Assembly: GCF_900215515.1 (NCBI RefSeq)
Contig: NZ_OBEI01000008.1
Location: 1-64,000, forward strand
Direction: 5' to 3'
DNA length: 64,000 nt
From: Persephonella hydrogeniphila
GTDB lineage: Bacteria; Aquificota; Aquificia; Aquificales; Hydrogenothermaceae
A program made the position numbers and the translations under genes. The number at the start of each line of letters is the position of its first letter. Position 1 is the first letter of the stretch. Below the pieces are notes generated by a model. That model ran no database searches. It saw only the letters and a list, made by a program, of their open reading frames with translations, and was not told where the DNA came from. Below are positions 53,157-62,083 of the stretch, piece by piece.

Positions 53157-53758
53157 TTGAAAGGGAAGACAACAAAATAGTTAAAGAGGTAGATACAAGG
53201 GGGATGTTCTGTCCCACTCCTTTAATATTTGTATCAAAAGAGCTCAAAAATATACCTGTAGGCAAAAGGTTGAAAGCTCTTGCAGATGATAAAGCCTTTA
53301 AAAAAGATATAAAGATATGGTGCCACGATACAGGAAATAAACTTGTGTCTTTAGAGGAGAAAGATGGTGTTATAACAGCAGTTATAGAAAGAGGTAAAGG
53401 CTGGCACGGTGATACGCTTTTTGAAAAACTTAGATTCTATGCTATAGGTGTAAAGCTTCACCTTTATGATTACTTTTTTAGAATATTTAAGTCTGCAGGT
53501 CCAAAATACATAATAACTTTTATGTCAATTCCTGAGGGCTTTAGAGCGATAGAGTTTTTAGAGAAAAGAGGAATAACAGATTTTGTTACATTACCTGTTC
53601 CGGATGAAATTTATGAGTTTTGTGGGGTTGTTATTGGATTTAAAGATAAAAACAGGGCTGTTGAGATTTACAATCTCCTAAAAGAGAATAAATTTGGTGT
53701 AGAAAATATCCATATAGTAGATAGAAACAGAAAGTATCCTGTTCTTAAAGACTTTTAA
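53147..53758 (+). CDS. TusA-DUF3343 fusion, putative sulfur/selenium carrier
   Basis: The N-terminal 80 residues are a TusA-like sulfurtransferase domain with the persulfide motif RGMFCPTP (Cys22). After a linker (about 84-117), residues 118-200 match DUF3343: KYIITFMSIPEGFRAIEFLEKRG, LPVPDEIYEFCGVVIGF (Cys159) and a final helix. DUF3343 is annotated in some databases as a putative Se/S carrier. The fusion suggests direct persulfide or selenide transfer between Cys22 and Cys159. It closes the miaA-hfq-hflX-HIT block and its stop overlaps the convergent gene by four bases. Confidence 0.82.
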   Translation: MQVVEREDNKIVKEVDTRGMFCPTPLIFVSKELKNIPVGKRLKALADDKAFKKDIKIWCHDTGNKLVSLEEKDGVITAVIERGKGWHGDTLFEKLRFYAIGVKLHLYDYFFRIFKSAGPKYIITFMSIPEGFRAIEFLEKRGITDFVTLPVPDEIYEFCGVVIGFKDKNRAVEIYNLLKENKFGVENIHIVDRNRKYPVLKDF

Positions 53759-54366
53759 GATTTCTTAAGCTGGTCTATCCTGAATGTAGTGTTCTGTGGA
53801 TGGCAGCAGCTTTTTATATTTATATTCATATTATTGACTATTGTATTGTAGGCATCTATAAAATTCATTACCTCACCACCGAATCCTTTTTTGAACCTTT
53901 CTGCATCCTCTTTTGATGCAAAAGGAATTACACTGGGACTACAGCAGGGAACTGCCGAACTACCAACAACATACCATGCATTCAGGGCACTAATGGGATT
54001 TTCTGTGATGAAATCGTAAGTGATGGCAGACACCGGTTTGTCTTCATATTTGCTGTGGAGTAGGAATCCACAGTGTTCACAGCATGCTTCAATCACTTTA
54101 TACTCTTCTACAGTTATTCTGTAAGGGTAAGCCCTTGTTATCGGTTTATCGCATATAGGACATGTATCTACAAGTAGGGATTCAGAGTTTTCCTTTTCGT
54201 TAAGTAGGACAGCTCCGTGTTTTCTTTTTATCTCTCCTTCTTTTTCAAGCTCCCTGATATCTCTGTAAATTGTCATCTCTGATACATTAAAAATTTTACT
54301 GAGCTCTTTTACCGAGATCTCTTTTTTTTCTTTTAATATTTCCAGAATTTTTTCCTTTCTTTCCAT
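53755..54366 (-). CDS. HTH regulator fused to a NosL-like Cys-rich domain
   Basis: Residues 1-55 form a DeoR-type winged helix (ILEILKEKKEISVKELSKIF, MTIYRDIRELEKEGEIKRKHGA). The rest resembles NosL, the copper-binding accessory protein of nitrous oxide reductase, in AWYVVGSSAVPCCSPSVIPF followed by ASKEDAERFKKGFGGEVMNF. It has many cysteines: Cys69/Cys72, Cys95/Cys96/Cys99, Cys141/Cys142 and Cys187/Cys188. No signal peptide is present, so the domain is cytoplasmic. A metal-responsive repressor is the simplest reading. It follows hisB by 11 bases; no nos genes are visible here. Confidence 0.72.
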   Translation of the reverse strand: MERKEKILEILKEKKEISVKELSKIFNVSEMTIYRDIRELEKEGEIKRKHGAVLLNEKENSESLLVDTCPICDKPITRAYPYRITVEEYKVIEACCEHCGFLLHSKYEDKPVSAITYDFITENPISALNAWYVVGSSAVPCCSPSVIPFASKEDAERFKKGFGGEVMNFIDAYNTIVNNMNINIKSCCHPQNTTFRIDQLKKS

Positions 54367-57372: not shown

Positions 57373-57401
57373 TTGACATACACAATATACAGTGGTATTT
57401 T
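57373..57401 (+). promoter_or_regulatory. Promoter of nrdB-nrdA
   Basis: TTGACA (57373-57378) and TATTTT (57396-57401) are separated by exactly 17 bases. This is the best classical promoter in the window. Transcription would start near 57407, leaving a leader of about 40 bases before the ATG at 57448. An NrdR-box-like sequence fills the spacer. Confidence 0.75.
57380..57395 (+). promoter_or_regulatory. NrdR box 1
   Basis: ACACAATATACAGTGG is close to the 16-base NrdR-box consensus (ACAC-N-ATATAT-N-G-N-GT type). It lies between -35 and -10 of the nrd promoter, where repressor binding would block polymerase. nrdR itself is not in the window. Confidence 0.7.
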
Positions 57402-57410
57402 TAATTAGCA

Positions 57411-57426
57411 GTACAATATATAGTAT
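57411..57426 (+). promoter_or_regulatory. NrdR box 2
   Basis: GTACAATATATAGTAT is a second NrdR-box-like site, 31 bases downstream of box 1 (start to start), about three helical turns, which is the usual spacing for paired NrdR boxes. It lies just after the predicted transcription start. Confidence 0.7.
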
Positions 57427-57447: not shown

Positions 57448-58437
57448 ATGAAAAAGCTTCAGTTCATAGGTAAAACGTCTGTAAGAGATAACATCAGGCT
57501 AACAGAGAATCCAAGATATCCGGTGTTCAAAGATATATACACAAAGCAGAAAAAAGCTGTCTGGTTTCCAGAGGAACTCAATATCCAACAGGATGTTTTA
57601 GACTACAAATCTTTAACTCCTACAGAGAAAGATCTGTTTGATACTTCTGTAGGTTATTTTGCTTCTTCAGAACTCCTTGTCCAGAACGTTTTAGGAAATG
57701 GGTTTTTCCCTGTCCTGACAGATCCCTATGCCAAAATGAGCTTTTCAACACAGATGTTTATGGAAAATATACACTCAGACTTCTTTGAGATAATACTGAA
57801 CACATTCGAGATGGACAGAAAGAGAATCTATAACATAACACTTGAAGATAAACTTCTTATGGAAAAACAGGAGCTTATAATAAGAGCTGTTGATAGAATT
57901 ACCTATGGAAAGGCAGATCCTGATTCCCTTGAAGGAAAAAAACAGATACTTACTGCTATTCTTCTTAATAACATAATACAGGAGGGTATGTTCTTTTACT
58001 CGGCATTTGCCCATTTCTTTGCTATGAAAGATACAGGAAAGATGAAAAATGTTGTCTCTGGTGTAGAGCTTATTCTTATAGATGAGTCCCTCCATCTCCA
58101 GAATGGAATAGAAGCTATCCTTACGATTGTTGAGGAGAATCCGGAAATAGTTGATGATGAAAAGTTTGTTGATAACATAAGGGAGACTATTATCGATGCT
58201 GTAGAGTTAGAGCTTAACTATCTGAAAACAAAATTTGGTGGAACTACAATATTCGGAGTTTCCTATAAAGAGCTTGAGAAATATATGAAGTACATAGCAG
58301 ATAGAAGACTTGAGGAGCTTGGATTTGATCCGCAGTTCAAAATACAAGAAAACCCCCTTAAGTTTCTTCAAAAAGAGGATGTGAAAAAGTTGGTTAACTT
58401 TTTTGAAGTATCATCGACAGAGTATACGAACTTCTAA
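57448..58437 (+). CDS. nrdB: Ribonucleotide reductase small subunit, class Ic-like
   Basis: This R2 protein (329 residues) has metal ligands Glu75, Glu106, His109, Glu179, Glu213 and His216, with the standard spacings (31, 3, 70, 34, 3). The residue at the radical-tyrosine position, four after His109 in ENIHSDFFEI, is Phe113, and the first ligand is Glu rather than Asp. Both are hallmarks of class Ic enzymes, which use a Mn/Fe cofactor in place of a tyrosyl radical. The C-terminal EYTNF keeps the Tyr used in radical transfer to NrdA. It is 25 bases ahead of nrdA and under a promoter with two NrdR-like boxes. Confidence 0.93.
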   Translation: MKKLQFIGKTSVRDNIRLTENPRYPVFKDIYTKQKKAVWFPEELNIQQDVLDYKSLTPTEKDLFDTSVGYFASSELLVQNVLGNGFFPVLTDPYAKMSFSTQMFMENIHSDFFEIILNTFEMDRKRIYNITLEDKLLMEKQELIIRAVDRITYGKADPDSLEGKKQILTAILLNNIIQEGMFFYSAFAHFFAMKDTGKMKNVVSGVELILIDESLHLQNGIEAILTIVEENPEIVDDEKFVDNIRETIIDAVELELNYLKTKFGGTTIFGVSYKELEKYMKYIADRRLEELGFDPQFKIQENPLKFLQKEDVKKLVNFFEVSSTEYTNF

Positions 58438-58462: not shown

Positions 58463-61400
58463 ATGCAAAGAACAGTCGTCAAGAGGGATGGCACAGAAGA
58501 AAAATTCCAGATGAAAAAACTGATAAATGCTATTTTTGCTCTTTTTGAGGGAATGGACTTACCTGATGACTGGGAGATTGCCTTTAAGATTGCGAAAGAG
58601 CTTGATCTGAAAATACCAGAAAGAGTTACAACCCATGAGCTTGATACACTTGTTCTGAAAGCTATAGAACAGTTAATCCCCACCCACTATATATACGATA
58701 CCCTTGCAGCAAGACAGCTTCTAAAATTAATAAATAGAGAGATAGACAAAAGATTCTCATCCTTTAAAGAGGCTGTTGAGTTTGGTGTTAGAGAAGGTCT
58801 CTACAAAGAAGAGCTTTTAAATTTTGACCTTGACAGGTTAGAAGATGCAATTGTTTATCAGAGAGATAGAAATTTAGACTATTTTGGTCTTACAACTCTA
58901 AAGGACAGATATTTTACAAGGGATAGAGAAGACAAAATTATAGAGAAACCCCAGTGGTTCTTTATGCGTGTGGCAATGGGAATAGGAAATAATGAAGAAG
59001 AGGTAATAAGGATATACGATAAGATATCAAAACTTGAGTATCTCCACTCAACACCGACACTTTACAACTCAGGAACTACAACGAACCAGTATAGCAGTTG
59101 TTACGTAAATGTAGTTGAGGATTCCCTTGAGTCTATTATGGATAAAGCAAAAGAAACAGCATTTTTAGCAAAGTATGCAGGAGGAGTAGGAACAGATATT
59201 ACAAGACTGAGAGCAACAGGTTCAAAAATCCACTCCCTCAATGCAAAATCATCGGGACCAATCCCATTTATAAAAATCTTTGACACTATCGTAAACGCAA
59301 TTCAGCAGGGAGGAAGAAGAAGAAGTTCTCAGGTTATGTATATGCAGCCATGGCATGTAGATATTGACTCTTTCCTTGATCTCAGAGAAACTACAGGAAA
59401 TCCATACTTCAGAACACCATCCCTCAACACTGCTCTGTGGATGCCGGATGAGATGATGAGAAGAATAAAAGAAGGAGAACCTCTGTATTTCTTTGATCCG
59501 GCAGAATGTCCAGAACTGATAACAAGCTGGGGAGAGGAATTCAAGAAAAAATATGAGGAATGTATTAAAAAAGCTGAAGAAGGAAAGCTAAAAATATGGA
59601 AAAAGGAGGAAGACAGCAAAGGCTGGTTTAATAGATACCTGTTTAAGCTCGCTAAAACCGGACATCCTTGGCTGACATTTAAAGACAGACATAATGAACA
59701 TAATCCGTGTCCTGAGTATAGTGTTATAAACTCTTCTAATCTCTGTGTTACAGGAGATACAAGACTTGCTACACAGTGGGGACTTGTTACTGCCAAAGAG
59801 CTATATGAAAAAGGGGAACCTATAGTAGCGACTTATGATAAAAGAACTGATGGAAACTGGAGAGAAAAAGGCGTTTCAACAGCACAGTGCTTAAAAATGT
59901 TTAAAACCAAGGAAAATGCAGATGTTTACGAAGTAATAACAAAAGAAGGATACAGGATAAAAGCAACAGACTGGCATGAGTTTTATAGGGTAGTTCCTAA
60001 CAAATTAGAAAAAGGAAAATATGCCAGAGATTATAAAATAGAAAAAGTAAAACTCTCAGAGCTTAAACCGGGAGATAAACTTCTTATACAATCAGGAGAA
60101 GGACAATTTGGAAATGAAGGTTACTATGAAGTTGGACTATTAACTGGACTGATAGCTGGAGATGGGACGTTTGCAGAAAGGAATGGGCATAAAACGGTTT
60201 ATATAGATCTTTATGACGAAGAAATATCTCTTTCTGAAATGATTTTAGAATCTATCAATGAAATTATTGAAAGGGAAAACTACACATCAGGTAATAATAG
60301 AATTTACACTAACACCCTGCCTAAAGTTATTAACCATACTAAGAACAGTAAAAAGGTAAGATTTGCAAATAACAGACTTGCAAAGATTTTAGAAAAAAAA
60401 TACAGATTTAATAAAGAAAATAAACTTTCTGTGCCTGAGTTTGTGTTTAAAGGAGCAAGAGAGACAATCATTGGATATTTACAGGGATTATTCACAGCAG
60501 ATGCTACTGTAAATATTATCAAAAATAATGGAATACCTACATTTTCAATTCAGCTTGCAAGTAAAAGTAAAAAACTATTGGAAGAAGTTCAGATTTTACT
60601 TGCAAACTTTGGAATTAAATCTTCTATCTCAAAAATGAGAGATAAAGAAGAAGCCCACTTTAGCTATATTACAAAATCTGGGGAAGAAAAAGTTTATGAT
60701 GCAAATCCTTTATACAGACTTTTAATAAACGGAAACAATGCTATAAAATTTATTGAGAAAATTGGATTTTTAGGAAGTAAGCAGCGAAAAGCACTAAAAA
60801 TATTGGAAGAGAGAGAAAGCCTCGGTTATCCAAGATATAGTAGAAAAGATGAACATTTCTTTGCAATAATAGATGAGATAAGATACGCAGGAAAAGAAGA
60901 TGTTTACGATACAACACAACTTTATAACCACTCGTTAATCTTTAACGGAATTGTAACAGGAAACTGTACCGAGATTAGCATTCCTAACTCTCCTGAATCT
61001 ACAGCTGTATGTACCCTTGCATCTGTCAATCTTGCAAAACACGTAAGAAGAGATAAAACAGATATAAACTGGGATAAGCTAAAAGACACCATAGAAACAA
61101 TGGTTGTTGCCCTGGATAATATCCTTGATAAAAATTTCTACCCATCTGAAGAATCAAGAAAAAACACAATGGATTTAAGACCTCTTGGTATCGGACTGAT
61201 GGGTTTTGCAGAAACACTTGTAGAGCTTGGTATTCCTTATGACAGTGATGAAGCAGTTAAGTTCGCAGAAAAAGTTGCAAAATTTATGAGAGAAACTGCC
61301 TATAAAAAATCTGAAGAACTTGCGAAAGAAAGGGGAGCATTCCCTCACTATGAAGAGATGAAAAAAGCAGGAAAGCCTTACCCATACCCTCCAAGAAGAA

Positions 61401-62083
61401 ATGCCGTTCTCCTTGCTGTTGCTCCAACAGCTTCAATATCAATAATTGCAGGAACGACATCATCAATAGACAGCTATTTCTCAAATGTTTACTCAAGGGA
61501 CACTCTTTCAGGAAAGTTTATAGTTGTAAACAAACAGCTTATGAAAAAGCTTGAAGAGATAGATATGTGGAATGAAGAGATGTCCCAGAAGATAAAGGCA
61601 AATGGAGGCTCTATCCAGTATATAGAAGAGCTTGATGGAAAAATAAACAAAGAATTGTTTAAAGGGGCGTACGAAATACATCCAAAAAGACAGATAGAAA
61701 TTGCCGCAGCATTCCAGAAATACATAGATCAGGCTGTGTCTAAATCTATCTACATAGAAGAAGACCTCAGAGATGATATGTTTGATATTTACATGTATGC
61801 ATGGGAGAAGGGACTGAAATCAACTTATTACTGCTTTATAGACAAAACTGTTAAAGGAGAAAAATACACCCAAAAAGTAAACAAGAGAGGAACAAGAAGA
61901 GGGTTTGGTCTAAGGAAATCTTCAGAAACTGCAAAAACAAAAGCAGAAGAGGATATAGAGCAGATAGAAAAAATGGCAAGGGAAAAGTACGGGGATGAGG
62001 TTGTAGATAAGGTAAAGTCTGGAGATATTGAAGGATGTCCAACAGATCCTCTTTTAAATAAAATCTGTCCGAGTTGCGAATGA
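58463..62083 (+). CDS. nrdA: Ribonucleotide reductase large subunit with intein
   Basis: The 1206-residue precursor contains a 407-residue intein (residues 428-834); the spliced enzyme would be 799 residues. The exteins have an N-terminal ATP cone (VVKRDGTEEKF, about 1-90), the redox Cys in YSSCYVNV, and the active-site loop SSNL-C-TEISIP formed only after splicing. The partner Cys lies in STAVCTLASVNL, the radical-path pair in TYYCFID, and the C-terminal thiol pair in ICPSCE. It needs NrdB for radical generation. GGAGG precedes the ATG. A strong terminator follows. Confidence 0.96.
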   Translation: MQRTVVKRDGTEEKFQMKKLINAIFALFEGMDLPDDWEIAFKIAKELDLKIPERVTTHELDTLVLKAIEQLIPTHYIYDTLAARQLLKLINREIDKRFSSFKEAVEFGVREGLYKEELLNFDLDRLEDAIVYQRDRNLDYFGLTTLKDRYFTRDREDKIIEKPQWFFMRVAMGIGNNEEEVIRIYDKISKLEYLHSTPTLYNSGTTTNQYSSCYVNVVEDSLESIMDKAKETAFLAKYAGGVGTDITRLRATGSKIHSLNAKSSGPIPFIKIFDTIVNAIQQGGRRRSSQVMYMQPWHVDIDSFLDLRETTGNPYFRTPSLNTALWMPDEMMRRIKEGEPLYFFDPAECPELITSWGEEFKKKYEECIKKAEEGKLKIWKKEEDSKGWFNRYLFKLAKTGHPWLTFKDRHNEHNPCPEYSVINSSNLCVTGDTRLATQWGLVTAKELYEKGEPIVATYDKRTDGNWREKGVSTAQCLKMFKTKENADVYEVITKEGYRIKATDWHEFYRVVPNKLEKGKYARDYKIEKVKLSELKPGDKLLIQSGEGQFGNEGYYEVGLLTGLIAGDGTFAERNGHKTVYIDLYDEEISLSEMILESINEIIERENYTSGNNRIYTNTLPKVINHTKNSKKVRFANNRLAKILEKKYRFNKENKLSVPEFVFKGARETIIGYLQGLFTADATVNIIKNNGIPTFSIQLASKSKKLLEEVQILLANFGIKSSISKMRDKEEAHFSYITKSGEEKVYDANPLYRLLINGNNAIKFIEKIGFLGSKQRKALKILEERESLGYPRYSRKDEHFFAIIDEIRYAGKEDVYDTTQLYNHSLIFNGIVTGNCTEISIPNSPESTAVCTLASVNLAKHVRRDKTDINWDKLKDTIETMVVALDNILDKNFYPSEESRKNTMDLRPLGIGLMGFAETLVELGIPYDSDEAVKFAEKVAKFMRETAYKKSEELAKERGAFPHYEEMKKAGKPYPYPPRRNAVLLAVAPTASISIIAGTTSSIDSYFSNVYSRDTLSGKFIVVNKQLMKKLEEIDMWNEEMSQKIKANGGSIQYIEELDGKINKELFKGAYEIHPKRQIEIAAAFQKYIDQAVSKSIYIEEDLRDDMFDIYMYAWEKGLKSTYYCFIDKTVKGEKYTQKVNKRGTRRGFGLRKSSETAKTKAEEDIEQIEKMAREKYGDEVVDKVKSGDIEGCPTDPLLNKICPSCE
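59744..60964 (+). mobile_element. LAGLIDADG intein within NrdA
   Basis: The intein begins with Cys1 (CVTGDTRLAT), has the block B TDWH motif at 75-78, and two endonuclease motifs: LTGLIAGDG at 133-141 and LQGLFTADA at 246-254. Both keep the catalytic Asp (140 and 253). It ends VYDTTQLYNHSLIFNGIVTGN with terminal Asn407, followed by the extein Cys. The residue before the last Asn is Gly instead of the usual His. The insertion point is directly before the thiyl-radical Cys of the reductase. Confidence 0.93.

Follow-up and report, generated by a model that had tools for sequence, protein, structure and literature searches.

The nrdB gene analysed here lies in a window of 64,000 nucleotides, the whole stretch of Persephonella hydrogeniphila DNA that was studied, and raises the question of whether its product, the small subunit (R2) of a class I ribonucleotide reductase (RNR), works without a tyrosyl radical and, if so, with which metals. 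The original prediction, made from the letters alone, had read NrdB as a class Ic enzyme that has Phe in place of the radical tyrosine and Glu as the first metal ligand, after the pattern of the Mn(IV)/Fe(III) R2 of Chlamydia trachomatis (Ct), and had remarked that a thermophilic Mn/Fe enzyme would be of structural and evolutionary interest.

The metal site of NrdB and its conservation

The nrdB reading frame is complete, with a stop-free translation of 329 aa (Table 1), and matched the Pfam family PF00268 (E=3.8e-65); the curated NCBIfam R2 models also matched NrdB, but under their cut-offs. In the translation, the ligands Glu75, Glu106, His109, Glu179, Glu213 and His216 were found exactly where they had been predicted, and translation and alignment together confirmed Phe113, four residues after His109, at the position of the radical tyrosine and Glu, not Asp, as the first ligand. 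The ligand intervals (31/3/4/34/3), claimed to be those of C. trachomatis R2, proved the same when the numberings were compared, and the step from F113 to E179 (66 residues) equals that from F127 to E193 in C. trachomatis. Alignment with the C. trachomatis and E. coli R2 proteins placed Phe and no Tyr at the radical position.

Table 1. Positions in the window of the nrdBA operon, its upstream boxes and the residues discussed.
Feature	Position	Strand	Basis or remark
NrdR box 1 (ACACAATATACAGTGG)	57380..57395	+	overlaps promoter-like site 57373-57401
NrdR box 2 (GTACAATATATAGTAT)	57411..57426	+	31 bp from box 1
nrdB, gene of the R2 of a class I RNR, Phe/Glu type	57448..58437	+	329 aa
W39, electron relay (E. 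coli W48, Ct W51)	57562..57564	+	alignment; invariant
E75, first ligand, with Glu in place of Asp (Ct E89, E. coli D84)	57670..57672	+	alignment, codon comparison
E106, metal ligand (Ct E120)	57763..57765	+	alignment, codon comparison
H109, metal ligand (Ct H123)	57772..57774	+	alignment, codon comparison
F113, position of the radical Tyr (Ct F127, E. coli Y122)	57784..57786	+	alignment, codon comparison
E179, metal ligand (Ct E193)	57982..57984	+	alignment, codon comparison
L208, place of Ct Y222 (activation relay)	58069..58071	+	Leu in all clade members
I211, aligned with Ct R225 and E. coli R236	58078..58080	+	alignment of gathered R2s
D212, radical-transfer path (Ct D226, E. coli D237)	58081..58083	+	alignment; invariant
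E213, metal ligand (Ct E227)	58084..58086	+	alignment, codon comparison
H216, metal ligand (Ct H230)	58093..58095	+	alignment, codon comparison
Y326, C-terminal Tyr of radical transfer (Ct Y338, E. coli Y356)	58423..58425	+	alignment, codon comparison
nrdA, R1 (large subunit), with an ATP cone and an intein	58463..62083	+	domain matches, residue alignment
Intein, 407 aa, LAGLIDADG, inside nrdA	59744..60964	+	directly before thiyl-radical Cys codon

Conservation of the site was followed in a clade of 50 NrdB sequences, 16 of them from Bacteroidota loci and the others from about 34 genomes of Hydrogenothermaceae. Across 47 clade genomes residues 75, 106, 109, 113, 179, 213 and 216 were constant with codons that vary synonymously, so the Phe/Glu site is not a matter of chance; W39, D212 and Y326 were likewise kept in the clade. 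Among all the R2s gathered, a first-ligand Glu was paired with Phe or Leu in the 50 clade sequences and in 17 others, and a first-ligand Asp was paired with Tyr in 79, with Tyr/Glu in the phage immuto of Flavobacterium (L199) as the sole exception. A further redox-inert variant was seen in two Bacteroidota R2s (L186 and L187), where Leu occupies the place of the radical Tyr and the first ligand is Glu.

These data bear on the possibility that NrdB is an ordinary class Ia R2 in which Phe results from an alignment slip or a sequencing error, or else a degenerate, inactive R2. The R2 fold and the W/D/Y relay are common to class Ia, and L208 is the residue that E. coli R2 has at that position. However, the motif is gap-free and retains all ligands throughout the clade, and Tyr occupies exactly the F113 column in 79 of the 79 Asp-type R2s gathered, which makes this explanation very improbable. 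An artefactual Phe is refuted by the codon variation around fixed residues.

In the published pairing rule, Phe/Glu denotes class Ic, Tyr/Asp class Ia or Ib and Tyr/Glu class Id (PMC8463856). NrdB carries the residues by which class Ic is defined (F113/E75, six metal ligands and the C-terminal Y326) and has Phe/Glu instead of the Tyr/Asp of class Ia/Ib. Membership of class Id was rejected, as that class requires Tyr/Glu, the pairing seen in immuto; class Id also has, in helix 1, a Lys close to the metals (Lys71 in F. johnsoniae; PMC8463856).

The NrdA partner, NrdR boxes and genome setting

The nrdA gene starts 25 bp downstream of nrdB. When NrdA was joined across its intein, the equivalents of C225, N437, C439, E441, C462, Y730, Y731, C754 and C759 (E. 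coli numbering) were all found to be kept, and nrdBA is accordingly an R2 gene with an adjacent, functional-looking R1 gene. Upstream of nrdB, the pair of NrdR boxes in the window deviates at 5 of 32 positions, compared with a 0.1% quantile of 8 mismatches among shuffles. Tandem boxes with a spacing of 30-31 bp and 2-7 mismatches in 32 were present in nearly all Hydrogenothermaceae examined, and an NrdR protein is encoded in the same genome; NrdR occupies pairs of boxes with a spacing of about three turns of the helix (PMC9110341). The intact NrdA, the conserved boxes and the genomic NrdR together argue for a working, regulated RNR, and the Hydrogenothermaceae promoter is predicted to be under NrdR control. 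NrdR boxes were not found upstream of the examined Bacteroidota nrdBA operons of about 70% identity.

The operon also helps to decide whether NrdB may be an R2-like ligand-binding oxidase (R2lox) rather than an RNR subunit, an idea that we find hardly credible. The first ligand of R2lox is Glu, as in NrdB. A Mn/Fe centre and the absence of the radical Tyr have also been described for R2lox (PMC3824934). However, the C-terminal Tyr that is missing in R2lox is present in NrdB as Y326, the three NCBIfam R2lox models, whose cut-offs are 194, 315 and 274 bits, gave scores of only 47, 43 and 22, and nrdB shares an operon with nrdA that is preceded by NrdR boxes. Furthermore, NrdB has N174 at the position of the Tyr of the R2lox Tyr-Val cross-link, which we take to lie five residues before a Glu ligand (MtR2lox numbering).

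The codon of the thiyl-radical Cys of nrdA (E. coli C439) occupies positions 60965-60967, and since the intein is inserted directly before it (SSNL/C...N/CTEI, with slashes at the junctions), the radical Cys of the enzyme is also the +1 splicing nucleophile. The nrdA intein occurs in some Hydrogenothermaceae (for example, L138, L147 and L156) and is absent from the close relatives L137, L141 and L143. In L151 the nrdA reading frame encodes 1235 aa despite an uninterrupted catalytic-Cys site, which suggests an insertion, possibly an intein, at another site. On three viral contigs (L106, L107 and L117) NrdA reads QSNLC/CLVGDT, which appears to mark an intein inserted at the corresponding catalytic Cys or adjacent to it.

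Elsewhere in the genome, an NrdJ-like class II RNR lies beside an ORF resembling a cobalamin (corrinoid) adenosyltransferase, and a class III NrdD is also present (L053 and L055); thus this 2-Mb genome encodes RNRs of three classes, class I among them. NrdI was not found in the genome, which argues against class Ib. A transporter of the Nramp type is encoded, and is weakly suggestive in being compatible with manganese uptake. In the window itself, positions 53755-54366 (minus strand) encode a small protein that joins DeoR-type HTH and NosL-like domains, an unusual combination.

Departures from chlamydial R2c and the predicted mechanism

The best sequence matches of NrdB in PDB were 6y2n (E=1.6e-35) and C. 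trachomatis R2, at about 30% identity, and in a fold search with the AF2 model (mean pLDDT 82) the top 14 hits were C. trachomatis R2 chains and 6y2n, before the R2s of E. coli and Aquifex. With C. trachomatis R2c (PDB 1syy, 4d8f and 4m1i) NrdB shares Phe/Glu, the ligand spacing including the 66-residue gap, the fold and the equivalents of W51, D226 and Y338, but identity is 29-32%, Y222, R225 and Y188 are replaced by Leu208, Ile211 and N174, and the two are separated by a deep branch. The 6y2n protein, also Phe/Glu, is the best match and yet differs from NrdB (30% identity) in having its own Tyr at the Y222 position and in grouping with Phe/Glu R2s of proteobacterial plasmids.

The replacements of Y222 and R225 lie in a gap-free part of the NrdB-R2c alignment and are characteristic of the clade. 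At the position of Ct Y222, all 50 clade sequences have Leu208, and the 17 Phe/Glu (or Leu/Glu) R2s from outside the clade have Tyr (82%), Trp (12%) or Phe (6%). At the position of Ct R225, Ile211 is found in 50 of the 50 clade sequences and Arg/Lys in 17 of the 17 other Phe/Glu R2s, as well as in about 97% of Tyr R2s. Ct Y222 has been called conserved among R2c and, together with W51, has been shown to relay the electron needed to reduce Mn(IV)/Fe(IV) (PMC4118035). As this mark of the R2c group is replaced by L208 throughout the clade, we treat NrdB as a candidate member of the group only. By its residues, the NrdB clade is not an ordinary R2c, a point that the earlier reading had missed. The class Ic Mn/Fe assignment thus held in part: the Phe/Glu signature, the R2c proteins as nearest fold and a predicted metal-centred oxidant speak for it, and the loss of Tyr222 (Leu208), the change of Arg/Lys to Ile and a deep branch about 30% identical to Ct R2c speak against it. 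NrdB is class Ic-type by residue definition and probably also by mechanism.

With Phe in place of the radical Tyr, the chemistry would probably be started from the metal pair, with manganese/iron as the best guess. Given the conservation of W39, D212, Y326 and the full set of catalytic residues in NrdA, a tyrosine-free enzyme with a metal-centred oxidant is the best reading; the published Phe/Glu pairing of class Ic and the presence of chlamydial R2c among the nearest solved relatives make both of these features well supported as a prediction. We therefore favour, with a probability of roughly 0.7, that NrdB is the R2 of a working class I RNR that would use, in place of a tyrosyl radical, a high-valent metal pair, most likely Mn(IV)/Fe(III), and the W39/D212/Y326 path.

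In the proposed mechanism, O2 or peroxide would react with the two metals bound by E75, E106, H109, E179, E213 and H216, and the oxidising equivalent would be stored in the resulting high-valent centre, probably Mn(IV)/Fe(III). The hole would pass by way of W39/D212 and Y326 to two Tyr of NrdA and on to the equivalent of E. coli C439, the catalytic Cys, where nucleotide reduction would start. The extra electron of activation would probably enter via W39 alone, with no Tyr222 step, as in class Ia, because Y222 of R2c is Leu in NrdB as in E. coli R2. We infer the absence of the Tyr radical and the radical path from homology with the characterised enzymes, and the Mn/Fe identity and the activation route less surely. 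Manganese itself is not readable from sequence, and the Mn/Fe assignment draws on two residues and fold similarity, not on close kinship, since the clade falls outside the Ct-like assemblage. The R2c group is marked by a Mn(IV)/Fe(III) cofactor that has Mn in site 1. As of 2014, Mn/Fe had been demonstrated in vivo for no R2c (PMC4118035).

Distribution and origin of the nrdBA lineage

A search of Aquificota found NrdB to be near-universal in Hydrogenothermaceae, at 85-98% identity, and every R2 of its type that was read in the family carries Phe/Glu. The R2s of Aquificaceae are about 28-32% identical to NrdB, thus not its vertical counterpart, and nearly all of those read are of the Tyr type. 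Among them, the class Ia R2 of Aquifex aeolicus (PDB 7ail) is a class I R2 of the same phylum, but with Tyr, and its tyrosyl radical and di-iron site have been measured (PMC8772380). As the Aquifex R2 is already characterised, the split in Aquificota between Aquificaceae (mostly Tyr) and Hydrogenothermaceae (Phe/Glu) offers a matched thermophilic pair.

The closest sequences elsewhere were found in Bacteroidota, where 13 of 395 sampled genomes (about 3%) encode an NrdB at 68-71% identity and the next best matches reach at most 31%. A scan of genome contigs showed that Fodinibius and Mariniphaga (L157, L158 and L159), which are not known as thermophile genera, have an NrdB 69-70% identical to that of the window, the same gene order and the same Phe/Glu/Leu/Ile signature, but their nrdA is intein-free and the upstream NrdR boxes are absent. 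Since the partner NrdA is also 67-70% identical, nrdBA is shared with Bacteroidota as a whole unit. Therefore a distinct nrdBA lineage is common to Hydrogenothermaceae and some Bacteroidota; its membership was drawn from genomes of these two phyla, and members in other phyla may exist. In the tree, Hydrogenothermaceae formed one branch beside or inside the Bacteroidota sequences, and an AU test on the direction of transfer between the two gave p=0.51; the patchy occurrence in Bacteroidota and the near-universality in Hydrogenothermaceae were also considered for this question. A viral or plasmid origin was rejected, as the R2s among the matches listed for viral contigs, phages and plasmids reached about 33% identity at most.

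In NrdB trees the clade forms a long, deep and isolated branch outside the Ct-like assemblage. A single clade of all Phe/Glu R2s was not rejected for NrdB (AU test, p=0.20), and for NrdA a grouping of the partners of every Phe/Glu R2 was disfavoured (p=0.014), in part because the other Phe/Glu rows do not themselves form a clade (control, p=0.069). One tentative proposal is that Phe/Glu may have arisen independently in the Bacteroidota/Hydrogenothermaceae nrdBA, with activation that would do without the Tyr222 relay and without Arg/Lys beside the key Asp, and perhaps with a different metal pair; if so, the lineage would represent a subclass of metal-radical R2s separate from R2c.

A related but unlikely explanation is that NrdB is a metal-centred radical R2 using other metals, either Mn/Mn, with chemistry like that of class Id, or high-valent Fe/Fe, in a Phe/Glu site that arose apart from chlamydial R2c. 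The deep separate branch, the NrdA grouping result (with the reservation just given) and the differences of L208, I211 and N174, all near the metal ligands, from R2c agree with it. However, the Tyr/Glu pairing of class Id (PMC8463856) is not that of NrdB, a single Phe/Glu clade was not rejected for NrdB, and the nearest solved folds are those of Mn/Fe enzymes.

The tyrosine-free RNR mechanism, as reviewed in the literature, is known almost entirely from one pathogen enzyme. The nrdBA lineage, with Phe/Glu and the radical path but without Tyr222 and the adjoining Arg/Lys, offers a natural system, probably heat-stable, in which to learn what residues the enzyme truly requires. It could reveal whether a Mn/Fe cofactor can assemble and undergo reduction when the Tyr222 relay is missing, and if Tyr loss with the Asp-to-Glu change evolved repeatedly. 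Thermophily alone, which the original prediction had linked with the interest of a Mn/Fe enzyme, is not the novelty, as class Ic in extremophiles has already been remarked on (PMC4118035); halophilic archaeal R2c are also present in published trees (PMC3824934). Literature searches found nothing on RNR with Persephonella and, among the papers listed for other Hydrogenothermaceae names, no dedicated study. What is new, as far as these searches reach, is the defined Bacteroidota/Hydrogenothermaceae lineage, its absent Tyr222 and Arg225, and its NrdR wiring.

Two further observations concern Aquificota. In one Hydrogenothermaceae genome (G077, 96% complete; L048), only an E. coli-like Tyr R2 was found and the Phe/Glu type was absent, reflecting either a real replacement or a contaminating contig. 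In the Aquificaceae genus g14 (L036 and L037), a second, unrelated Phe/Glu R2 of Aquificota is present, with Trp at the position of Ct Y222.
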